From positions 1-45,681 of the forward strand of contig JAKEGJ010000007.1 of the NCBI GenBank assembly GCA_022627495.1: a DNA stretch of 45,681 nucleotides. Direction: 5' to 3'. This document shows positions 25,362 through 34,898 of this stretch, in pieces. The notes under the pieces are model-generated. The model was not told the origin of the DNA. It searched no databases and saw nothing but the letters and a program-made list of their open reading frames with translations. Each line of letters starts with the position of its first letter. Position 1 is the first letter of the stretch. The DNA comes from Microcaldota archaeon (GTDB lineage Archaea; Micrarchaeota; Micrarchaeia; Anstonellales; Bilamarchaeaceae). The position numbers and the translations under genes are program-made.

Positions 25362-25895
25362 TCACCGGAGCCGGCCGAAGATTGCGGAGAGCTCCTCGCT
25401 GCCCGTTATCCCGCAGACCTTCTCCATCTTCCCGCCCTTCTCGACCGCGATGCAGGGCATGCCGGTGAAATTATACCTTTGCGCATCGGAATCGCAATAG
25501 CGGATGTCGTAGCGACGGACCGAAGCATCCGCCCCGCTGGAAATGAACGCGTCGATTTGCGCATCCTGCGCGATGCAGCGGGGGCAGAAAGGCGAGTAGA
25601 AATAGCTGATTTTCGTTTCCGAATTCGGGTTAGACACCTGCTCCGGGCATGGTTTCATGCCGATTTCGCCCGATATCAGGCCCGCCAGAAGGACCAGGCA
25701 GGCAAAAGCGCACGAATAGCCGGCTGTTCTGGCGAGCTGCCCCGCTCCCCTCCGGCTTGAGATGAAAAAAAGCAGGGCAGAGCTTCCGGCCATTGTGGCT
25801 GCCGACAGATAGGCATGCAGGGCATAGGCTGAGGCGATGGACAGCATGAGCAGGGACGCCGCTAGGGCGAGCACCGCATTGTCGGAAAGTTTCAT
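25362..25895 (-). CDS. Membrane-anchored thioredoxin-like protein
   Basis: The ATG at 25895 has a strong ribosome-binding site (ggaaggggg), so the upstream in-frame ATG is not used. The 177-residue product has two or three hydrophobic segments in its first 80 residues. A thioredoxin-fold domain with the redox motif FCPRC follows, then the cis-Pro-like GMPCIAVEKGGK. The CxxC domain would follow the last membrane segment. It may exchange disulfides for exported or metal-binding proteins. A second thioredoxin-like gene (30620) also lies in this metal region. Confidence 0.75.
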   Translation of the reverse strand: MKLSDNAVLALAASLLMLSIASAYALHAYLSAATMAGSSALLFFISSRRGAGQLARTAGYSCAFACLVLLAGLISGEIGMKPCPEQVSNPNSETKISYFYSPFCPRCIAQDAQIDAFISSGADASVRRYDIRYCDSDAQRYNFTGMPCIAVEKGGKMEKVCGITGSEELSAIFGRLR

Positions 25896-25977
25896 CGAAA
25901 ACCCCCTTCCATACCCTCCATCCAACCTCGCTGCAACTATAATCCCGTATGCGAATAAGCCGTCTCCGGCCTGTTGC

Positions 25978-26733
25978 TCATTCGGGCCTTCTTTGCCTTG
26001 TTTCCAAATTGTCCAATGGCGCGACATCCGGCCTCTTGGACTTGTAAACCGATATGAACGGCATTCCGGAGAATTCCTTTTCCACGCCAGTCATTTCCTC
26101 CCTCTTGAGGGGCGGGACGGAAGAGGGGCGTAAAGGGGTGTCCAGCTGTATCTCATCCGCGCCTATCTCACGGACAATCCCGGCCATTGCACAGGCGGAT
26201 TCCTTGTTAGCCTCAATAAACATCATCTGAAGCGCGAGTTTGCCGGAGAACTCTTTCCGAAAAGACATCAGCCCTTCCAGAACGGACTCCAGGGTTATCC
26301 CGTTCGCCGGGCGGTTTATTTCCTGGAATGTCCTCTCGTCTGACGCGTCCAGCTTAGCGGACACGATATCTGCTTTGGAGAGTGCGCTGCGAACCTCCGG
26401 AAGGTGCAGCATGGACGAGTTCGTGAGAACCGCCACGGGAAGGGCGTATTTTTTTGCCGAGATTATCATTTCACCGATGCGCGAATTGAGCGTGGGTTCG
26501 CCTGTTCCGGAAAACGTGATGATGTCAGACGTACTTTTATCTGCCGTAGCCAGCCCGCGTTCCACGTTCTGCAAATCCACGTATTCCTCTCTTTTTGTCG
26601 TTTTGACTCTCGTTCTTCCCAACTGGCAGTAGGTGCAGTCAAACGAGCAAATCTTCCCCTTCCTGCATATCGGGTCCACGCCCAGGGAGCGGCCGAATCT
26701 CCAGGAGGGCACGGGTCCGTAAATGGTTTTCAT
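25978..26733 (-). CDS. Radical SAM protein of the COG0731 type
   Basis: The ATG at 26733 has aggggt upstream and places YGPVPSWRFGRSLGVDP at the N terminus, as in related proteins; an ATG at 26766 abutting the previous stop is an alternative. The cluster motif is CSFDCTYCQLG, and TFSGTGEPTLN is the glycine-rich SAM-binding motif. COG0731 includes wyosine-synthesis relatives, but small members like this (251 residues) are mostly uncharacterised. Its place in an operon with DUF134, SpeH-like and His-rich proteins suggests work on a metal cofactor rather than tRNA; that is inference. Confidence 0.85.
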   Translation of the reverse strand: MKTIYGPVPSWRFGRSLGVDPICRKGKICSFDCTYCQLGRTRVKTTKREEYVDLQNVERGLATADKSTSDIITFSGTGEPTLNSRIGEMIISAKKYALPVAVLTNSSMLHLPEVRSALSKADIVSAKLDASDERTFQEINRPANGITLESVLEGLMSFRKEFSGKLALQMMFIEANKESACAMAGIVREIGADEIQLDTPLRPSSVPPLKREEMTGVEKEFSGMPFISVYKSKRPDVAPLDNLETRQRRPE

Positions 26734-26766
26734 CAGAGAACCCCTGCCCTGCTGGGCGGGGAACAT

Positions 26767-26919
26767 CTACTTGTGGTGTTTGCTCCCCTTTGTCTTATGG
26801 TGGGTGCTGCTTTTGTGCGTACTGTGCCGTGCTCCGCCTTTGTGCACGCATTTGCCCTTGACATGCTTATGCCCTTTGTGCCCGGGCCCCCTGCCCTTCA
26901 ATCCAGCCGTCTTTGTCAT
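26767..26919 (-). CDS. His/Lys-rich 50-residue peptide, likely metal-binding
   Basis: This gene is short but well supported: it has a ggtga ribosome-binding site, starts 7 nt after the SpeH-like gene, and ends next to the radical SAM frame. About a fifth of its residues are His and more than a fifth Lys, with one Cys: GHKGHKHVKGKCVHKGG and HSTHKSSTHHKTKG are typical. Such composition suggests binding or storage of Ni, Zn, Co or Cu, or binding to anionic partners. No family recognised. Confidence 0.7.
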   Translation of the reverse strand: MTKTAGLKGRGPGHKGHKHVKGKCVHKGGARHSTHKSSTHHKTKGSKHHK

Positions 26920-26926
26920 AAACAAT

Positions 26927-27319
26927 TCACCACTTTCCTATTTTCGTTACAGTCACTCCTTTCGAATCCCCTCTCTTATAAATCATCCCGTGATAGCTCT
27001 CCATCCCAAAATACGAATCGATGAGGCCGAGTATCCTCTCCGGTTCGAACAGCTTGCACGAATAAAGGTCGAAATATATCTCGTTCTTGTCTGAAAAGAA
27101 ATGCAATGAACAGTGGCTCGTGGTTATCATCTGCACGAAACTCTGCCCGGGGAAATCCAGGTCCTCCGCCCCGGAATAGGCGAGGGGGCCGAGCGCTTTC
27201 ATGTCTGCGGCTAAAAGCAGGTCTTTCATGAAGGAAGCGGCCATTTCCCCCGATATCTCCTTCAGGGGCTTTACCCTGGCATTTACCGTCAGATGCAGGT
27301 GGGATAGTTTGTTTTCCAT
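26927..27319 (-). CDS. S-adenosylmethionine decarboxylase-like (SpeH-fold) protein
   Basis: The start at 27319 follows a gggagag ribosome-binding site. The 130-residue protein carries TTSHCSLHFF then EIYFDLYSCKLFEPERILGLIDSYFG. This matches the SpeH pattern ESHxSIHxxPE, then DVFTCG, then an amphipathic helix. In real enzymes the Glu-Ser bond is cut to form the pyruvoyl group; here it is Thr-Ser, though Ser, His and the later Cys remain. It could be an active variant or a repurposed SAM-binding protein. In this operon a non-polyamine role is plausible. Confidence 0.65.
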   Translation of the reverse strand: MENKLSHLHLTVNARVKPLKEISGEMAASFMKDLLLAADMKALGPLAYSGAEDLDFPGQSFVQMITTSHCSLHFFSDKNEIYFDLYSCKLFEPERILGLIDSYFGMESYHGMIYKRGDSKGVTVTKIGKW

Positions 27320-27329
27320 GTCTCTCCCT

Positions 27330-27473
27330 TCAGAAGCCAAGTTCGCCCAGCATCTTTTTTTCCTCGTCCTTGCTAAATGCCCTTCCAACCCGGTATCCGG
27401 GCATTATGCCCCTCCCCCTGCAGTTCCAATTTCCTCCCGCCCATGCGGGCCCCGTCCCATCTCTTCCCGGCAT
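27330..27473 (-). CDS. DUF5320-like small Gly-rich protein
   Basis: Start ATG 27473 overlaps the DUF134 stop by one base (tgatg) with ggtggag as ribosome-binding site. The 47-residue product opens MPGRDGTGPAWAGGNWNCRG, the usual opening of small proteins next to NifX-like and MinD genes, and ends DEEKKMLGELGF. The longer relative at 30280 opens the same way. Function unknown; perhaps a small partner or metal-site peptide of the cluster. Confidence 0.7.
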   Translation of the reverse strand: MPGRDGTGPAWAGGNWNCRGRGIMPGYRVGRAFSKDEEKKMLGELGF

Positions 27474-27778
27474 CACTCCACCTCTTTTTTTATGTAGTAT
27501 TCTCCCCCTTTGATTTTGATGGCCTGGCCCTTTACCAGGGCTTCGGCGACCTTCTTTCTGGCTGATGTTAGAAGCCGATGCAAGGTGGGCTGGGAAATAT
27601 TCATTTTTTTTGAAGCCGCCGTTTGCTCGAGTTCTTTAAAATCAACCAGCTTCAGCGCTTCCAGCTCATCGACAGTGACCTCCGATTCGCTGAGCTCCCT
27701 CAACGGAACTCCGGCCGGCTTGAAGTAGGTGACCTCTGGTTCGCAGGCAACCCTCCTGCATTTTTTCGGTCGTGACAC
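27473..27778 (-). CDS. DUF134 helix-turn-helix protein (COG1342)
   Basis: This 101-residue protein starts with GTG almost at the predicted transcription start. Its N terminus RPKKCRRVACEPEVTYFKPAG and VTVDELEALKLVDFKELEQTAASKKMNISQPTLHRLLTSARKKVAEAL are typical of DUF134, a sigma-region-4-like helix-turn-helix family. It leads the second metal operon. The palindrome GAATATATATTC sits between its TATA box and start codon, and the same arrangement precedes the NifX/MinD operon. It is therefore a candidate autoregulator of both; that is inference. Confidence 0.9.
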   Translation of the reverse strand: MSRPKKCRRVACEPEVTYFKPAGVPLRELSESEVTVDELEALKLVDFKELEQTAASKKMNISQPTLHRLLTSARKKVAEALVKGQAIKIKGGEYYIKKEVE

Positions 27779-27783
27779 AAGAT

Positions 27784-27810
27784 GAATATATATTCATAAT
27801 TGTATTTAAA
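27784..27810 (-). promoter_or_regulatory. Promoter-operator of the DUF134 operon
   Basis: On the minus strand a TATA box tttaaata (27803-27810) is followed after 7 nt by the perfect palindrome GAATATATATTC (27784-27795), just before the GTG start at 27778. The palindrome lies where transcription should begin, a position typical of repressor sites. The same arrangement and spacing occur at 30540-30566. Confidence 0.75.
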
Positions 27811-27820
27811 CTTTTTGGTT

Positions 27821-28690
27821 TCAATCTTGGGTTTCTTTTTGCCGGATGAGCCTAATCAGCTTTTTCGCCATCTTTTTCAGTTCCCTGGCGGCGGGCCCTT
27901 TCCCGAGCGACGGGGGAGTGCCCGATGCGAGCATGCGGGGGACATTCTCATCATATGGAATCCTAGCAGCCAGCAGGCCGCCGAATCTCTGTATGATTTC
28001 TTTCTCATATTTTTCCGATATGCCCTGCTTGTTCATGACTATGGAATATGGAATGGAAAAATGCCTCACCACCTCAAGTGCCCGCTCCAGATTGGCGATG
28101 CTTGCCGGAGTCGGTTCGACTATCCCGATCGCATGGTCAGAGCCGCTGACGGCTGCTATCACCGGACAGCCTATGCCTGCCGGCGCGTCTATGAGGATAT
28201 CCGGTATCCCCCTGCGCGAAACAATCTCCTGGGTTATGCGTTTAATCTCGAAAACCACCTTTCCGCTCCCCGCTTCCCCCGGAATCAGCCGGCCATAGAC
28301 GAGGGGGAATCCGGCGGTTTCCGAAACCATGATCTCCCCGCTATTTTTGGGCACGAGTTTGATTTCCAGCTCCGGGAACGCGATTCCGCATGCCCCGCAG
28401 CCTTCACACCTGGTCTCGATTATCCTGAGCTTTCCGCCTTCGAGGGTGATGGCGCCGAATTCGCATACCTTCGAGTAGTCGCGGCATACGGGCGCGTTGT
28501 TCCCTATCACAGCGAGCTTGGAGGCAGAGAACGTGTCCCTGCTTTTTTCCTTGCCCTTGAAAAGGAGGAACTGGTTCGGGCAGTCCACATCCGCATCGAC
28601 AAGAATACAGTGACCGAGTTCAAGGGCGATGGCAGATGCCACGCAGGATTTTCCGGTTCCCCCCTTTCCGCTGAGCACAACGATCTTCAT
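27821..28690 (-). CDS. MinD-superfamily ATPase with degenerate inserted ferredoxin domain
   Basis: The 289-residue protein begins with the deviant Walker A KGGTGKS and has DADVDCPNQF and later DAPAGIGCPV, as in COG1149 ATPases. The inserted ferredoxin-like segment is reduced: CEGCGACGIAFPE keeps three cysteines of one cluster motif, the fourth position is not Cys, and only Cys at VCRDYSKVC is added nearby. Homologues partner with NifX-like proteins in Fe-S or Mo/Cu cluster handling. It overlaps the upstream MinD gene by ATGA and is the last gene of the first metal operon. Confidence 0.9.
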   Translation of the reverse strand: MKIVVLSGKGGTGKSCVASAIALELGHCILVDADVDCPNQFLLFKGKEKSRDTFSASKLAVIGNNAPVCRDYSKVCEFGAITLEGGKLRIIETRCEGCGACGIAFPELEIKLVPKNSGEIMVSETAGFPLVYGRLIPGEAGSGKVVFEIKRITQEIVSRRGIPDILIDAPAGIGCPVIAAVSGSDHAIGIVEPTPASIANLERALEVVRHFSIPYSIVMNKQGISEKYEKEIIQRFGGLLAARIPYDENVPRMLASGTPPSLGKGPAARELKKMAKKLIRLIRQKETQD

Positions 28691-29517
28691 TTAAGGAGCC
28701 TCCTTGCGAAATCGGATATCTTCCTGGACAGGGGGTGCTCCGGAAGCGCCCGGATGATGGGCACGCCCAAAACATAGCAGTCTATCATGTCGCGGTCGTA
28801 CGGAATCTCCAGCGCCGCGCCATTTATCTTCCGCGAAGATATTGTGCTGCGGTTGACGATTACGCCATGCGGAATGCCAAGCTTCCCAAGGACCTCTTCA
28901 ATAGCCGCCAGGTCGCTCTCCCCGAAAAGGGTCGGCTCGGTCACGGCAAAGGCCCGGTCGCACCCTTCCAGAGCCCTCACTACAGGGCAATGCGCGCCGG
29001 CTGATGTGTCCACTATGAATATCTCGCCCCGGCCTTCTTCGAATCCCCGCTGCTTTACTGCTTCGACCATCTTCTCGGAAAGCGGTTCTGAAGGTTTCAG
29101 TTTCCCCGAAAAGAGCTCCAGGCCGTGCTTCTTGGACCTGTATGTCCAACCTATGGCCTTGCTGCTTCCGCTGATGGCGCCATAAGGGCAGGCAAGGACG
29201 CATGCCTTGCATCCGCTGCAGAGGGATTGCGCGGTCTGGGGTGTCTTCCCCCTTGGCATATACAGCGCATTGAACTGGCATTTTGCCACGCACGTGCCGC
29301 ATTTCATGCAGCGGTCCTGGTCTATGGCGGGAATGAATGAGCGGACCTCCTGCTTTTTGCCGAGTGTTGCGCTAAGCAGGATGTGGGCGCTCGGGCAGTC
29401 GGTGTCGCAGTCGAGATAAGTCACTTTCCTGCCCAAATCCGCCAGGGCAAGCGCGATGTTGACTGCAAGAACTGTTTTGCCGGTTCCCCCTTTCCCGCCG
29501 GTTATCCCCAAAATCAT
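28687..29517 (-). CDS. MinD-superfamily ATPase with two 4Fe-4S motifs
   Basis: The 276-residue COG1149-type ATPase has GKGGTGKTV, DCDTDCPSAH and DTSAGAHCPVV for nucleotide binding. Inserted near residues 65-110 are two complete ferredoxin motifs, CMKCGTCVAKCQ and CSGCKACVLACP, so it should bind two 4Fe-4S clusters. In Desulfovibrio such pairs (ORP3/ORP4-like) occur with the orange protein. The pairing of a full-cluster and a reduced-cluster paralogue suggests a heterodimer with division of labour. It follows the NifX-like gene by 12 nt. Confidence 0.93.
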   Translation of the reverse strand: MILGITGGKGGTGKTVLAVNIALALADLGRKVTYLDCDTDCPSAHILLSATLGKKQEVRSFIPAIDQDRCMKCGTCVAKCQFNALYMPRGKTPQTAQSLCSGCKACVLACPYGAISGSSKAIGWTYRSKKHGLELFSGKLKPSEPLSEKMVEAVKQRGFEEGRGEIFIVDTSAGAHCPVVRALEGCDRAFAVTEPTLFGESDLAAIEEVLGKLGIPHGVIVNRSTISSRKINGAALEIPYDRDMIDCYVLGVPIIRALPEHPLSRKISDFARRLLK

Positions 29518-29529
29518 GAATATGACCTT

Positions 29530-29874
29530 TCAGTGGCGGCAGACGTTTTCTACCGTTTCAAGCTTCCCTTCCAGGTACTGCCTTGCCATCTCGCGCGCAG
29601 CGCCGCTGGCGAACACCACCCGGATTCCGGCCGATTCCAGGGCTTCTATGGCATTCGGGCCTGCAGCCCCGGTTATCACAACGTCGACTTTTTGCGATAT
29701 TATGAATTTGGGGACCGCCCCGGGCTTATGGGTGCCGCAGAAAGGGTTTTTGACCAGCTTTTCGCTTATGATTCTGCCTCCGTCGGTCTCAAAAATGACA
29801 AAGCAGGCGCACCTCCCGAAATGCGTAACCATTCCGCCATCTTCTCCGGATTCGGCCGACACAGCAATCCTCAT
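29530..29874 (-). CDS. NifX/NifB-C-terminal-like protein (COG1433), second copy
   Basis: The 114-residue RNase-H-like fold protein has VTHFGRCACFVIFE near the start and VVITGAAGPNAIEALESAGIRV, the two landmarks of the dinitrogenase iron-molybdenum cofactor family. In orange protein this fold carries a Mo-Cu sulfide cluster. FGRCACF supplies two cysteines, and a CRH tail ends the protein. The start overlaps the first NifX-like gene by ATGA. It likely carries or inserts a metal-sulfur cluster; the metal cannot be read from sequence. Confidence 0.9.
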   Translation of the reverse strand: MRIAVSAESGEDGGMVTHFGRCACFVIFETDGGRIISEKLVKNPFCGTHKPGAVPKFIISQKVDVVITGAAGPNAIEALESAGIRVVFASGAAREMARQYLEGKLETVENVCRH

Positions 29875-30275
29875 CGGCGTCTACCCCCCCGCCCTTCGCT
29901 CATTTCCCGGATTAAGCCTGCATTGCGCTGGGCTGTCGGCCGGTCGATTGGAACGAGATTTCCCTGAAGAAGGCTTTCTACTGCTTTTTTCACATTTCCG
30001 GCATCCAAATACACCTTGATGCCTGATGCAAGCAGGACCGCAAGCGCATTGGGGCCGCAGCTGCCCGTGACTACCGCATCCGCTTTGGATTCCGCAACCG
30101 CCTGGGCCGCGGATATCCCCGCGCCCCCGCCCGCACCTGCGCCCGGGTTATCCATTACCCGTACCGCCCACTCTTTTTCAGCCGTATCGACTATGGTGAA
30201 ACTGGGGCACCTTCCGAAGTTAGGGAAAATATTGTCATCCAGCCCGCCCTTTGATGTCGAGACCGCAACCTTCAT
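29871..30275 (-). CDS. NifX/NifB-C-terminal-like protein (COG1433), first copy
   Basis: The ATG at 30275 has ggtgag upstream and begins MKVAVSTSKGGLDDNIFPNFGRCPSFTIVD, the standard family opening. AVVTGSCGPNALAVLLASGIKVY follows. A Gly/Ala stretch (GAGAGGGAGIS) sits where the cofactor loop is expected. The basic tail GRGGRRR is extra. The protein is about 20 residues longer than its neighbour, so the two may form a mixed complex. It lies in the DUF5320-NifX-NifX-MinD-MinD operon. Confidence 0.9.
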   Translation of the reverse strand: MKVAVSTSKGGLDDNIFPNFGRCPSFTIVDTAEKEWAVRVMDNPGAGAGGGAGISAAQAVAESKADAVVTGSCGPNALAVLLASGIKVYLDAGNVKKAVESLLQGNLVPIDRPTAQRNAGLIREMSEGRGGRRR

Positions 30276-30279
30276 GCGC

Positions 30280-30510
30280 TCACCCATTTTCAAGTTCGGC
30301 TATCCGTTTCCTGACGGACTCCAGCTCGTGTGCAAGGCTGTCTGCGTAGGCCTTCAGTTCCGCAGAATTCCCCTCGGCGCCCTGTAGCCGGGCAAATCCG
30401 AACCGGCCGCCTGCGCAAAAGCCGCGGCGAAATCCCGTTCCACACCGGCCTCTGCCCCACCCAAATCCTCCCATGCCCCATCCGGGCCCCGTTCCATCTC
30501 CTTTTGGCAT
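30280..30510 (-). CDS. DUF5320 protein
   Basis: The 76-residue protein opens MPKGDGTGPGWGMGGFGWG, has Gly/Arg/Phe-rich repeats with two cysteines, and closes with a coiled-coil helix (LKAYADSLAHELESVRKRIAELENG). This matches DUF5320 proteins found beside NifX-like genes. Role unknown; the helix probably oligomerises and the Gly-rich part may wrap a cluster or partner. It is first in the operon behind the GAATATATATTC promoter, with a 5' leader of about 25 nt. Confidence 0.88.
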   Translation of the reverse strand: MPKGDGTGPGWGMGGFGWGRGRCGTGFRRGFCAGGRFGFARLQGAEGNSAELKAYADSLAHELESVRKRIAELENG

Positions 30511-30539
30511 TCAAATCACATCCTTTTGTTTTTTATATT

Positions 30540-30569
30540 GAATATATATTCGTAATGATATTTAAATAT
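30540..30569. promoter_or_regulatory. Promoter-operator of the DUF5320/NifX/MinD operon, shared with the CcdA gene
   Basis: On the minus strand TATA box tttaaata (30559-30566) is followed after 7 nt by GAATATATATTC (30540-30551), the same layout as at 27784. The TATA region itself is the palindrome ATATTTAAATAT (30558-30569), so it can also serve the divergent gene starting at 30620. One regulator could thus control both directions. Confidence 0.72.
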
Positions 30570-30619
30570 TTCCTAATTTAATCCATGTCAGGAATGTCAT
30601 GCCTGAAGGTGTGAATCAT

Positions 30620-31798
30620 ATGAAAACGGCGTTGCCCCTACTGATTATCCTTTGTGCCGCGACCTCTTACGCGATAGAAATCGAGCTATTTTACGGCGAA
30701 GGCTGCCCCCACTGCGCATCGACCTCGGCCCTTCTGGACACCATGAAGGACGAGTACAACCTGTCAATATCCAAACATGAAGCATACTATAACTACGAAG
30801 AGCGCACCAGGCTGATTGCCTATTATGAGCGGTTCGGATATGATGTTAGCAAGGGCGGTGTTCCGACCACGATAGTTGGCGGGACCGCGATGGTTGTCGG
30901 CGAATTGAGTGAAAGCCAATGGAAGATGCTTTTTGATGCATGCCAGGAAGGACGCTGTCCGACGGGAGTATACACGTATAGCACGTTCACCCTCCGTATC
31001 GGGAACCAAAGCGCCGCGGCGAACCTGACGGGCAACGGCACCGCGGTGGCAAATGCTACTGCACCGGCAAACGACACTCGGATGGACCCGCTTCAGGAAT
31101 TAAACGGTGCGGCGGCAATAACCCTGCCGGTGCTGATAGGCGCGGCTTTGGTCGATTCCATCAACCCATGCACCATTGCCGTAATGGTCCTGCTTTGCGG
31201 GGCGATACTGTGCGCCAAAGGGCGCAATAGCGCGCTTTTAGCGGGGCTGATATTCTCTTTCGTCATTTTCTTCATGTATGTCCTTTATGGGCTTGGCATA
31301 ATGAAAGCCATAGCCGCGCTCGAACTCACAAGGGCGTTTTATACGCTTGTGACGCTCGGGGCGCTGGCATTGGCTTTGATGGAAATCAATGCGTATTTCA
31401 ACTACAAGCCTGGATTCCTGGCGGTCGAGATGCCAATGTTCCTGCGGCCCTACGCGAAAAAAATCACCGCCAGCGCAACCTCTCCTGCCGGTGTAGCTGT
31501 CGCGGCGGTGTTCTGCTCACTTTTCCTCCTGCCCTGCTCCTCGGGCCCATACCTCCTTGTGCTGGGCATGCTTGCCAAGGCGGCCACGATGCAGACAATC
31601 GGGTATCTCGTATTGTATAATCTGTTCTTCATACTCCCGATGGTCGTGATAACAGTCGCAGTCTACCTGGGGAAAACGACGATAGAAAAGGTGAACGAAA
31701 CCAAGGAAAAATACATCCGGCTCATCCACCTCGTTTCAGGCATAATCCTGTTCTTCCTGTTCCTTCTCATGCTGGGGCAGGCGACCGGATGGTACTGA
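30620..31798 (+). CDS. Thioredoxin-like domain fused to a CcdA/DsbD-type membrane domain
   Basis: The ATG at 30620 has ggtg upstream and yields a signal peptide (MKTALPLLIILCAATSYA). The next 110 residues are a glutaredoxin-like domain with GCPHC and the cis-Pro segment VPTTIVGG. A stalk with NxT sequons leads to six or more membrane helices of the CcdA family, with DSINPCTIAVM and LLPCSSGPY carrying the conserved Pro-Cys pairs. It would move electrons across the membrane to exported thiols. It is divergent from the NifX/MinD operon and may share its operator. Confidence 0.9.
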   Translation: MKTALPLLIILCAATSYAIEIELFYGEGCPHCASTSALLDTMKDEYNLSISKHEAYYNYEERTRLIAYYERFGYDVSKGGVPTTIVGGTAMVVGELSESQWKMLFDACQEGRCPTGVYTYSTFTLRIGNQSAAANLTGNGTAVANATAPANDTRMDPLQELNGAAAITLPVLIGAALVDSINPCTIAVMVLLCGAILCAKGRNSALLAGLIFSFVIFFMYVLYGLGIMKAIAALELTRAFYTLVTLGALALALMEINAYFNYKPGFLAVEMPMFLRPYAKKITASATSPAGVAVAAVFCSLFLLPCSSGPYLLVLGMLAKAATMQTIGYLVLYNLFFILPMVVITVAVYLGKTTIEKVNETKEKYIRLIHLVSGIILFFLFLLMLGQATGWY

Positions 31799-32194: not shown

Positions 32195-33022
32195 TTAATG
32201 AAGATTCGCCTCCCTTGCGGCATTGACCCTGAGCTTATGCAATATCATGGCGGAAACGAACGCCCCGACAAGGACCAGCACTATTGCCCCCCCCGCCGCC
32301 GCGTCAAAATAAAAAGCGGCGGTAAGGCCGACAACGGTCGATGCCAGGGCAATGGCCGCCGCGAGGAACAGAGTGTTTTGGAAACTTCGTGATATCAGGA
32401 GGGCGGCGGACGCGGGAAGGACGATGTATGATGATACGAGCAGGACGCCCACGACCCTCATGGACACGACTACGGTGACGGCCGTAAGCACTATCAGCAT
32501 CGTATTCAGCTTCTCCACGGGCAATCCGCCGGCGCGGGCGGATTCCTCGTCGAATGTGATGTAGAAAAGCTCCTTGTAGAAAAGCCACACCAAGGCAACC
32601 GTAACCGCGCATAGCACACTTATGAATGCAAGGTCCGTCTCGTTCACTGCGAGTATGCTCCCGAAGAGATATGAGAAAAGGTCCATGCCAAATCCTTTCG
32701 ACATGCTAATCAGCGTGATGCCTACAGCGAGCCCGAAGGAGAAGAATATCGCAATTGCGGCATCGCCATGGACCTTCATGTCCTTGAGGCGCTGTATCCC
32801 CAGCGCCGAAAGCACGGTGAACACCAGCGCGCTAAGGAGCGGATAAATATTGAAGAACATGCCTCCAGCTATACCGGCGAAAGCGATGTGGGCGAGGCCG
32901 TCCCCCATTAGGGACATTCTGCGGAGAACAAGGAAAAGGCCTATCACCGAGCAGACAATGGCTATCAGCGTTCCGGCGATAAACGCACGCTGCATGAAAC
33001 CGTACTCCAACATGTCGAGCAT
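32195..33022 (-). CDS. znuB: ABC transporter permease of the zinc/manganese (ZnuB) family
   Basis: The ATG at 33022 follows the znuC-like stop by 2 nt. The 275-residue protein has eight or nine hydrophobic helices and family landmarks: FVLRRMSLMGDGLAHIAFAGIAGG, then MRVVGVLLVSSYIVLPASAALLIS. It imports a divalent metal with the ATPase and binding protein encoded upstream. Family members carry Zn or Mn; the neighbouring regulators make zinc or nickel plausible. Confidence 0.92.
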   Translation of the reverse strand: MLDMLEYGFMQRAFIAGTLIAIVCSVIGLFLVLRRMSLMGDGLAHIAFAGIAGGMFFNIYPLLSALVFTVLSALGIQRLKDMKVHGDAAIAIFFSFGLAVGITLISMSKGFGMDLFSYLFGSILAVNETDLAFISVLCAVTVALVWLFYKELFYITFDEESARAGGLPVEKLNTMLIVLTAVTVVVSMRVVGVLLVSSYIVLPASAALLISRSFQNTLFLAAAIALASTVVGLTAAFYFDAAAGGAIVLVLVGAFVSAMILHKLRVNAAREANLH

Positions 33023-33024
33023 AC

Positions 33025-33813
33025 TCACTCCACCCCATCCTGGCAATGGCCCGGGCAGCCGGCATGCCCGTGCCTGACAATCTTCATCCGGTCTGCATAG
33101 GCGCAGATCAGGTCTGCCGGGTTCACCCCCTTTGATACGTCATGGAGCACCACGCTGCGGTTCACGCACGCCAGCTTGTTCACATGCGCGCTGACAACCC
33201 CGATGTCATGGGAAATCAGGATGATGGTTATCCCGGCGCTGTTGAGCCTTTTCAGTATGGCGTAGAACCTTTTCTGGGCATATCGGTCGACGCCCACTGT
33301 GGGCTCATCCAGAATCAGCAGCTCCGGCTCTGCTACCAAAGCCCTTGCCATGAATACCCTCTGCTGCTGGCCACCCGAAAGCTCGCTGATGCGCTTATCC
33401 CTATGCTCCAGCATCCCGACCTCGTCAAGCGCCTTTTCAATCAACTCGCGGTCCTTGGCGCCAAGCTGTTTCATGATGCCTGCCCTGGGTATCCTTCCCA
33501 TCGCTACGACTTCCGATACCGAGGCAGGGAAGTTCTGGTCGAAATTCGTCACCTTCTGGGGCACGAACCCGACCCTGGCCCTTGCGTCGGCGCTTGCAGG
33601 CGGGGCTCCGAACAGCCTGACTAAGCCGCTATCCGGCTTGAGGAGGCCGATAATGATCCTGATGAGGGTGGTCTTGCCCGAGCCGTTCGGGCCGATTACT
33701 CCCAGGAAATCGCCGCGCTTCACCTCGAGCCCCACATTCTCAAGGACAATGTGGGCTCCGTACGAGAAGGTGACCCCCTTTATCCATATTACCGTGTCCT
33801 TATCCATTCCCAT
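33025..33813 (-). CDS. znuC: ABC transporter ATPase of the ZnuC family
   Basis: Start alternatives are GTG 33837, ATG 33813 and ATG 33807; 33813 is used because ggataaggtc precedes it. The roughly 262-residue protein has Walker A GPNGSGKT, Q-loop VPQKVTNFDQN, signature LSGGQQQRV, Walker B LLILDEPTVG and the switch His in ILISHD. The C-terminal end is His/Cys-rich (KIVRHGHAGCPGHCQDG), which could bind the transported metal; that tail is unusual. Confidence 0.93.
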   Translation of the reverse strand: MGMDKDTVIWIKGVTFSYGAHIVLENVGLEVKRGDFLGVIGPNGSGKTTLIRIIIGLLKPDSGLVRLFGAPPASADARARVGFVPQKVTNFDQNFPASVSEVVAMGRIPRAGIMKQLGAKDRELIEKALDEVGMLEHRDKRISELSGGQQQRVFMARALVAEPELLILDEPTVGVDRYAQKRFYAILKRLNSAGITIILISHDIGVVSAHVNKLACVNRSVVLHDVSKGVNPADLICAYADRMKIVRHGHAGCPGHCQDGVE

Positions 33814-33827
33814 GACCTTATCCTGGG

Positions 33828-34793
33828 TTATCCACACTCTAAACCATTTTTAATGTTGGCCAGATTCCCTTCCATAAGCGATATGTAGTCCTCACCCGCT
33901 GCATTCTCTTCGGGCGTCAACCCATGCACTGAATTGAACGCGAGCACCGAGCCGTTTATCTCCTTGGCGATGGTCTGCGCCGAGCGGGGGTCTATCATGC
34001 TCTCAAAGAAAACCACGCTTACGTTGCTTTCTTTTGCCAAGTCGATTATCGCTGCAAGGTCCGATGGGGAAGGCTCGGCTTCCGGGTCCACCCCGCTGAT
34101 GGCTATCTGGTTGCAGCCATACCTTTTGCAGAAATAGCCGAGCGTGGCATGTGTCACAAGGATGTCGTGTTTTGTGCAGTTCGACATCGTTGTCCTAATC
34201 TCATTATCGAGCGAATCCAGTCTCGCGTTGTATGAAGCGGCGTTGTTTTCGTAATACTCCTCCCCATCGGGGTCTGCCTCTATCAGGGCATCGCGGATAT
34301 TGTTGACCTGGATTTTAGCCAGGACCGGGTCGAGCCAGAAATGCGGGTCGAAGCCGCCGGCATGCGAATGTTCAGTTCCCTGCTCTTCATATTCTTCATG
34401 CTCATCATGCCCTTGCGAACTTAGGAGGGTTATGCCAGCGCTGGTGTCGGCTACGATCAAGTCCTTCCTTTCAACGCCCTTCACAATGCTATCAGCCCAA
34501 GGCTCCATGCCCGCGCCGTTATATAGGAAGACATCCGCTTCTGATAGCTTCCGTATGTCAGAAGCAGTAGGTTCGAATTCATGCGGTTCAACACCCATCG
34601 GGATGAGTGTCGTAACCTCGACACGGTCCCCCCCGACATTTTTCGCAAAATCATAAATGGGGTAGAAGCTGGCGACAACTATTATCTTTCCTTCTTCATG
34701 CTGCGGAGTGCTTTCGGTGCAGCCCGCGAGCATTATCGTGAAAGCGAGCAATGCGCCTACCATTAACATTACGGTTGTTTTCGCGCCAGACAT
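33828..34793 (-). CDS. znuA: Zinc-type ABC transporter substrate-binding lipoprotein
   Basis: The ATG at 34793 gives a lipoprotein signal ending LAFTIMLAGC. The mature part has the cluster A-I fold landmarks VVASFYPIYDFAKNVGGDRV, GVEPHEFEPT, DPHFWLDP, VTHATLGYF and FESMIDPRSAQ. These hold the three His and one Asp that bind the metal. A His/Glu-rich loop (GHDEHEEYEEQGTEHSHAGG) is the zinc-trapping loop seen in ZnuA rather than manganese proteins. It heads the znuA-znuC-znuB-zinc-ribbon operon and is divergent from the NikR-like genes. Confidence 0.93.
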   Translation of the reverse strand: MSGAKTTVMLMVGALLAFTIMLAGCTESTPQHEEGKIIVVASFYPIYDFAKNVGGDRVEVTTLIPMGVEPHEFEPTASDIRKLSEADVFLYNGAGMEPWADSIVKGVERKDLIVADTSAGITLLSSQGHDEHEEYEEQGTEHSHAGGFDPHFWLDPVLAKIQVNNIRDALIEADPDGEEYYENNAASYNARLDSLDNEIRTTMSNCTKHDILVTHATLGYFCKRYGCNQIAISGVDPEAEPSPSDLAAIIDLAKESNVSVVFFESMIDPRSAQTIAKEINGSVLAFNSVHGLTPEENAAGEDYISLMEGNLANIKNGLECG

Positions 34794-34898
34794 ATCATCA
34801 CGCCCAATCCATGAAGACAATCATTAATAAATTTTTATGTCCAGATTATTAACTATTCGCGGCCTTTAGGCCTTTCTTATTAACCGGGTTGATCTGCC

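Follow-up and report, generated by a model that had tools for sequence, protein, structure and literature searches.

The stretch of DNA analysed here (the window, 45,681 nucleotides) is contig C7 of the 1.45 Mb genome, 82% complete, of a Microcaldota archaeon; among named organisms, it is closest to DPANN archaea of the Micrarchaeota type. Its minus strand carries ten genes in two operons that are arranged in tandem and have promoters of the archaeal TATA type. Operon 1 (30510-27821) encodes a small DUF5320 protein (DUF5320a), two NifX-fold proteins (NifX1 and NifX2) and two MinD-ferredoxin ATPases. Operon 2 (27778-25978) encodes a DUF134 protein, a short DUF5320b-like peptide, a SpeH-like protein, a His-rich peptide and a radical SAM protein, and is followed by a gene for a membrane-anchored thioredoxin. 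Both operons are preceded by the palindrome GAATATATATTC, which, as judged from its sequence and distribution, is most likely an operator bound by DUF134. The locus is probably an autoregulated iron-sulfur (metal-sulfide) homeostasis regulon, with DUF134 as the regulator.

Distribution of the palindrome and variation of the predicted DUF134 recognition helix

The arrangement is exact at both promoters and consists of TATTTAAA, which reads TTTAAATA on the coding strand, then 7 nt and GAATATATATTC. The 12-mer, which the preliminary description of this DNA had proposed as one palindromic operator for both promoters, occurs exactly twice in the genome, at these promoters, and the same pattern read backwards, which served as a control, has zero copies. 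Judged on the window alone, two exact copies are a modest signal. Across 301 genomes of the phylum, DUF134 is present in 44 and TGAATATATATTCA, the core of the palindrome, in 30; DUF134 is carried by 26 of the 30 genomes with TGAATATATATTCA versus 18 of the 271 others (Fisher p 9.6e-22). The backwards control of TGAATATATATTCA, also a palindrome and of the same composition, was found in a single genome (1/301).

Most TGAATATATATTCA sites (25/36) lie at DUF134 loci, usually directly upstream of DUF134 or of a DUF5320-DUF134 pair; these sites are typically located immediately behind the TATA box, and some overlap the start codon. Seven of the 36 map elsewhere in DUF134 genomes, including before DUF5320 genes (G081, G140 and G141). 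In G019, the operator precedes a split ArsP-like permease gene with NifX, away from DUF134, and in G162 and G181 the same permease and NifX genes belong to one operon with DUF134. The large subunit of RuBisCO is encoded directly behind an operator-DUF5320-DUF134 arrangement in G103 (L051 2026-3938). Several DUF134 genes without the exact motif feature one-mismatch or related palindromes at the same place, and no clear site was observed at the DUF134 genes of G004, G040, G116 and G156. The sites found in four genomes without DUF134 (G085, G021, G013 and G104) were judged to be background, those of the first three being apparently within coding sequence. Unrelated 14-bp copies make up a background of about 1% of genomes, as for a variant operator, of which three of four sites occur in DUF134-less genomes, a similar background rate. 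The palindrome did not prove to be common at unrelated promoters.

Palindromes at DUF134 promoters, of the form NNN(T/C)AT-ATnnn, covary with a Gln/Arg residue of the predicted recognition helix of DUF134, a relationship that is taken here as the mark of the proposed autoregulator. In classic side-chain contacts, Gln reads A and Arg reads G. In the set, archaeal DUF134 proteins almost always have a helix that starts with S-Q-P-T and a T at position -3 of the half-site (GAATAT), and at least 26 genes of this Gln type have exact GAATAT half-sites. Arg-type genes (SRPT, SRGT, SRQT or ARTT) are associated with GAACAT, GTGCAT, TGGCAT or TGACAT half-sites. Two of these are archaeal, one in G089 (SRPT, GAACATATGTTC) and one of the G022 paralogs (SRGT, GTGCATATGCAC); the other G022 paralog features SQPT with GAATATATATTC, so that both helix/operator pairs occur within one genome. 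DUF134 genes on bacterial plasmids are all of the Arg type, most with C at -3 and usually with two copies of the site around the promoter. For instance, TGGCATATGCCA, or forms with one to two mismatches, accompanies DUF134 genes of Citrobacter, Klebsiella, E. coli, Aeromonas, Providencia and Dongshaea. The site is TGACATATGTCA in Selenomonas, TGACATATGCCA and TGGCATATGTCA in Peptoclostridium and an imperfect GAACATTTGTTC in Phocaeicola, and in Salinivibrio kushneri the site lies upstream of the separate NifX gene. The operator, its spread across genomes and the covariation between helix and base have been shown by computation.

Pfam gives the widespread DUF134 family as one of unknown function. 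A control search also revealed DUF134 in Methanosarcina acetivorans. A search of viral contigs and phages revealed no DUF134 match, no solved relative was found by sequence, and a search of an open-access library, judged by titles, abstracts and term counts, yielded no functional study of DUF134/UPF0251.

Composition and recurrence of the gene cluster

All ten reading frames listed in the preliminary description are present, at the positions given there, in two adjacent operons (Table 1), and Pfam and NCBIfam confirmed the families of all products except the two short peptides. NifX1 and NifX2 match Nitro_FeMo-Co and are the only NifX-fold proteins of the genome, the two ATPases are of the CbiA/ParA type with ferredoxin inserts, and DUF134 (PF02001) scores 108.5 bits against a gathering cut-off of 27 bits. 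The peptide that had been described as a second DUF5320-like product has homologs, 60-63% identical, directly behind DUF134 in G134 and G151, but its DUF5320 match falls below the cut-off; the His-rich peptide has no family match in Pfam or NCBIfam. Start codons of NifX1, SpeH-like and radical SAM were corrected, more likely to ATG 30275, 27319 and 26733, respectively. The functional neighbourhood extends from 25362 to 31798 and takes in two thiol-redox membrane proteins. A zinc-type ABC transporter (ABC-3 permease, ATPase and ZnuA) is encoded near operon 1 (32195-34820, minus strand).

Table 1 Features of the two operons and flanking thiol-redox genes, in window positions.
Feature	Position	Strand	Evidence or remark
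Operator 1, palindrome GAATATATATTC	30540..30551		Follows TATA 30559-30566 after 7 nt (operon sense); one of two genome copies
DUF5320a, small protein rich in Gly/Trp/Phe/Arg/Cys, encoded first in operon 1	30280..30510	-	Pfam DUF5320 E 5.7e-7
NifX1, NifX-fold, short Arg-rich C-terminal tail, IssA/ORP-like	29871..30275	-	PF02579 E 7.8e-21
NifX2, second NifX-fold, without long tail, C-terminal Cys-x-His	29530..29874	-	PF02579 E 1.2e-18
MinD-ferredoxin ATPase 1, two complete [4Fe-4S] motifs	28687..29517	-	Pfam/NCBIfam, alignment
MinD-ferredoxin ATPase 2, one of the two [4Fe-4S] ligand sets lost	27821..28690	-	Pfam/NCBIfam, alignment
Operator 2, palindrome with TGAATATATATTCA core	27784..27795		Follows TATA 27803-27810 after 7 nt (operon sense)
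DUF134, predicted autoregulatory repressor, predicted recognition helix SQPTLHR	27473..27778	-	PF02001 E 2.7e-31; operator co-occurrence; helix/base covariation
DUF5320b-like short peptide, overlapping DUF134 end	27330..27476	-	Weak DUF5320 match, E 0.041; homologs in G134, G151
SpeH-like putative pyruvoyl-dependent decarboxylase (AdoMetDC fold)	26927..27319	-	PF02675 E 3.3e-11; alignment; model
His/Lys/Gly-rich peptide, GH-x-GH-x-H...C-x-H pattern	26767..26925	-	Same-place homolog in G136 only
Radical SAM protein (Cx3Cx2C), cluster-specific subfamily	25978..26733	-	PF04055 E 5.8e-14; 53-61% relatives
Membrane-anchored thioredoxin (CPRC), likely end of operon 2	25362..25895	-	Thioredoxin E 1.8e-5; 55% homolog in G136
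Thioredoxin-like (CPHC) and CcdA/DsbD-like membrane protein, divergent from operon 1	30599..31798	+	Homologs in 7 other genomes, 29-61% identity

A core composed of DUF134, DUF5320, one or two NifX-fold proteins and two MinD-ferredoxins recurs as a unit in several genera, which agrees with the earlier view of a NifX/MinD-ferredoxin metal-cluster system. DUF134-DUF5320-NifX-NifX-MinD-MinD form a single run in G030 and G167, the operator precedes DUF5320-NifX-MinD-MinD with DUF134 nearby in G131, and the clusters of G022 and G027 feature one NifX. Added genes encode an MBL (MBL-like in G147) and a radical SAM protein in G147 and G089, and TrmO and a radical SAM protein in G153. Clusters of NifX and MinD-ferredoxin genes are already known as a kind of system; the assignment of DUF134 as regulator, the operator code, the IssA-like tails described below and the partner genes are new.

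The radical SAM gene had been thought a new addition, a view that does not hold. Its close relatives (53-61% identity) occur in only 4 of the 301 genomes, in all four within DUF134/NifX/MinD clusters, and a related protein (37%) is encoded with DUF5320, DUF134 and MBL on a clostridial plasmid of Peptoclostridium. Given these two observations, the addition is old and widespread. A second Peptoclostridium locus has the order DUF134-NifX-ATPase-ATPase-MrpORP. As regards a possible NifB-like role in nitrogenase cofactor synthesis, the radical SAM protein of the window has no NifX domain and matches no named NCBIfam maturase above its cut-off.

The SpeH-like and His-rich genes, correctly regarded as unusual, constitute a rare cassette found together in only one other species. 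In this species, G136, which belongs to the same genus, the operator is followed by DUF134, a DUF5320b-like peptide, a SpeH-like protein (61%) and a His-rich peptide; among the 43 genomes of the family, the His-rich peptide is found only there and in the window genome. Since G136 has the peptide without the radical SAM protein, the peptide was rejected, as a main reading, as a ribosomally synthesised and post-translationally modified peptide (RiPP) substrate of that enzyme. A second SpeH paralog is located on contig C21, and most family genomes have that paralog beside transketolase and thiolase genes. The idea that the operon copy is the ordinary SpeH of the cell was rejected because the C21 paralog has the family-typical neighbourhood and the operon copies of the window and G136 form a clade of their own (support 100/98).

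The SpeH-like protein model (pLDDT 91) matched the S-adenosylmethionine (AdoMet) decarboxylase (AdoMetDC) of T. maritima in a structure search (TM 0.72/0.79), the PDB sequence profile search having returned no match. Ser68, His73 and Cys88 are invariant in the family alignment, and in the T. maritima enzyme these residues are catalytic. The protein scores 43.9 bits against AdoMet_dc PF02675 (cut-off 25) and 24.4 bits against the bacterial AdoMetDC equivalog TIGR03330, below its cut-off of 75.65. Its substrate need not be AdoMet, as candidate arginine and ornithine decarboxylases have been found among the SpeD homologs of DPANN archaea (PMC10407285). The search for a co-occurring spermidine synthase gave only weak matches to long Spermine_synth-like proteins in G000. 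In G043 (L044 641-1750), operator, DUF5320, DUF134 and another pyruvoyl enzyme, the arginine decarboxylase PvlArgDC, occur together with overlapping stop and start codons. PvlArgDC is thus translationally coupled to DUF134, a suggestive, though single, case.

Membrane thiol-redox genes are partners of the cluster that had been overlooked. Homologs of the CcdA/thioredoxin protein, which has no Pfam match above cut-off, are encoded beside DUF134 or the operator in seven other genomes (eight with the window), and its gene possibly shares the TATA region of operon 1. The homolog of the thioredoxin behind operon 2 is encoded divergently from the DUF134-SpeH-His-rich operon of G136.

Probable iron-sulfide homeostasis and alternative readings

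We infer repression, dimerisation, the ligand, cluster chemistry and enzyme substrates in the following scheme. DUF134, probably as a dimer, would sit on GAATATATATTC at both operons, between TATA box and start site, and keep transcription of its own operon and of the NifX/MinD operon from starting until released by a signal, most likely iron, sulfide or iron-sulfur (Fe-S) status. Like IssA, NifX1 would carry an anionic iron-sulfide, with DUF5320a supplying cationic segments rich in Gly, Arg and aromatic residues, and NifX2 and the two MinD-ferredoxin ATPases would reduce and mobilise the iron-sulfide and pass it to client proteins. The radical SAM protein may mature or modify a component, and the CcdA/thioredoxin proteins may provide thiol reductant across the membrane. 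The SpeH-like and His-rich proteins would be a lineage-specific cassette providing a polycation or a product of decarboxylated AdoMet (dcSAM), and a metal-binding peptide. It is tempting, if doubtful, to go further and to regard DUF134 proteins as a cross-domain family that represses genes for iron-sulfide storage, one helix residue disclosing the target (Gln T:A, Arg C:G), and the SpeH-like protein as a pyruvoyl-dependent decarboxylase added to the regulon in this archaeal lineage. Its polycationic or dcSAM-derived product would, alongside Gly/Arg-rich proteins, stabilise or modify an anionic store of metal sulfide. An independent recruitment of PvlArgDC in G043, again behind DUF134, would agree with this extended view.

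Several points weigh against the regulon and the code. Among bacteria, phylogeny confounds the helix/base correlation, and with only two archaeal Arg-type genes the independent switches are few. The single-sequence AlphaFold model of DUF134 is of low confidence (pLDDT 54), and the position of the recognition helix consequently rests on a helix-turn-helix-like profile match and the N-terminal location. Beyond a few Cys residues no ligand-binding domain is evident in DUF134, which makes the signal a guess. Because DUF134 stands alone or beside unrelated genes in several genomes (RuBisCO in G103), the regulon is not always one of iron-sulfur genes. Nearly all genomes of the comparison set are probably metagenome-assembled, the tail of NifX1 in the window is short and Arg-rich without the aromatic and Gly richness of its orthologs, and the orange protein (ORP) is nearly as close to NifX1 as is the IssA-clade structure.

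This last similarity bears on the earlier label ‘ORP-like’, which is partly supported, by the presence of NifX and MinD-ferredoxin genes, and weakened by the nearest relatives of the NifX proteins, their tails and the regulator. A true archaeal ORP complex would be formed by the MinD-ferredoxins, with a Mo-Cu-S (or Mo-Fe-S) cluster in the NifX-fold proteins and a possible part in cell division, as has been suggested for Desulfovibrio. Paired MinD-ferredoxin ATPases, one regulator over two operons, as for orp (PMC3897727), and the match of NifX1 to D. gigas ORP (2wfb, E 8.7e-15) are consistent with it, yet NifX1 is slightly closer to MTH1175 (1eo1, E 2.3e-17), which is placed in the IssA clade (PMC5524996), and NifX2 is much closer to TM1816 (1t3v/1o13), ORP ranking sixth. 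In full clusters the orthologs of NifX1 have C-terminal tails, for example FGMGPGGGFGRGMGGGFGRGGGRGFGRGPGGGY, which are clear in G030, G131, G153 and G167 and shorter in G147. These tails have the Gly/cationic/aromatic character of the thioferrate-binding tail of IssA (PMC5524996), and DUF5320a is similar to them in composition. MinD-ferredoxin 2 of the window has kept the ligands of one [4Fe-4S] cluster and lost those of the other (Cys I, III and VIII). As the regulator also differs in type and the recurring neighbours are iron genes rather than Mo/Cu genes, we consider a true ORP complex unlikely. Because NifX1 orthologs carry IssA-like tails, iron-sulfur storage or assembly fits at least as well. 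Links to iron speak for this view, namely the DtxR/FeoA and FeoB genes of G151, Dps near a DUF134-NifX pair on a Klebsiella plasmid and MrpORP in the Peptoclostridium locus, as does the thiol-redox partner present in eight genomes.

A general response to toxic metals would have DUF134 sense a soft metal and switch on sequestration, by DUF5320, the His-rich peptide and NifX, and export, by the ArsP-like permease. It is favoured by the operators before the split permease with NifX in G019, G162 and G181, the Cys in the His-rich peptide and the location of bacterial DUF134-NifX pairs on mobile plasmids. Such pairs, with TGGCATATGCCA-type sites, are found on many enterobacterial and Aeromonas plasmids (L210, L212, L213, L214 and L219), often near PaaI thioesterase, Dps (as on a Klebsiella plasmid) or a SLAC1 channel. 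ATP-dependent MinD-ferredoxins, radical SAM and TrmO are, however, unlike detoxification, and the row of operator, DUF134, DUF5320b, DtxR/FeoA fusion and FeoB in G151 (L119 4116-6848) indicates iron supply, making this response improbable.

Operon 2 downstream of DUF134 might also be a chance neighbourhood, with SpeH-like, His-rich and radical SAM genes unrelated to NifX/MinD. The same-genus genome G030 has the full core without these three genes, and G136 lacks the radical SAM gene. On the other hand, the SpeH-His-rich pair recurs in G136 behind DUF134-DUF5320b and the same operator, in its own supported clade, and the radical SAM gene lies within the cluster in 4/4 genomes, so that chance is rather implausible. 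Lastly, another regulator might bind the palindrome, or the palindrome might belong to the core promoter, with DUF134 nearby by chance; for this speak its location around the start site, in an AT-rich archaeal promoter, and its copies in four DUF134-less genomes. This reading is very improbable, as the presence of the palindrome tracks DUF134 (p ~1e-21), variant operators pair with variant helices even inside G022, related palindromes precede bacterial DUF134-NifX genes without a TATA box, and the DUF134-less copies match the background of about 1%.

For DUF134, the analysis predicts a DNA target and a recognition code and proposes a regulon, by which orphan NifX-fold, DUF5320, MinD-ferredoxin, radical SAM and CcdA/thioredoxin proteins of DPANN archaea would be tied into one regulated unit. 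The analysis also offers a route to asking whether thioferrate-type storage is common.

Relation to known systems

The Desulfovibrio ORP system (orp1/orp2, MrpORP) and the window both feature a small NifX-fold protein and two MinD-type ferredoxin ATPases, in two operons under one regulator, and both are anaerobe-associated; MrpORP is an Fe-S carrier (PMC6345978). In contrast to the orp genes, which are controlled by sigma54, DVU2106 and IHF (PMC3897727), the archaeal operons have DUF134 and a TATA-adjacent palindrome, are tandem rather than divergent, encode NifX proteins not closest to ORP, and include DUF5320, radical SAM, SpeH-like and CcdA/thioredoxin partners. The SpeH-like protein resembles class 1 AdoMet decarboxylases SpeH/SpeD and their arginine and ornithine decarboxylase offshoots (PMC10407285) in fold and Ser/His/Cys spacing, and differs in falling below the equivalog cut-off, in having a second, divergent paralog and in the absence of speE beside the gene.

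IssA, the iron-sulfur (thioferrate) storage protein of Pyrococcus furiosus, and NifX1 have the IPR003731 (NifX) globular domain in common, and the tails of NifX1 orthologs and the proximity to MTH1175 point the same way. Unlike IssA, NifX1 of the window has only a short Arg-rich tail and is clustered with MinD-ferredoxins and DUF134. The plasmid cluster of Peptoclostridium acidaminophilum, DUF134-NifX-MinD-MinD(-MrpORP), differs from the window in its Arg-type helix, the C at -3 and the lack of SpeH-like and His-rich genes, but has the same core genes and, like the window, upstream palindromes, in two copies.

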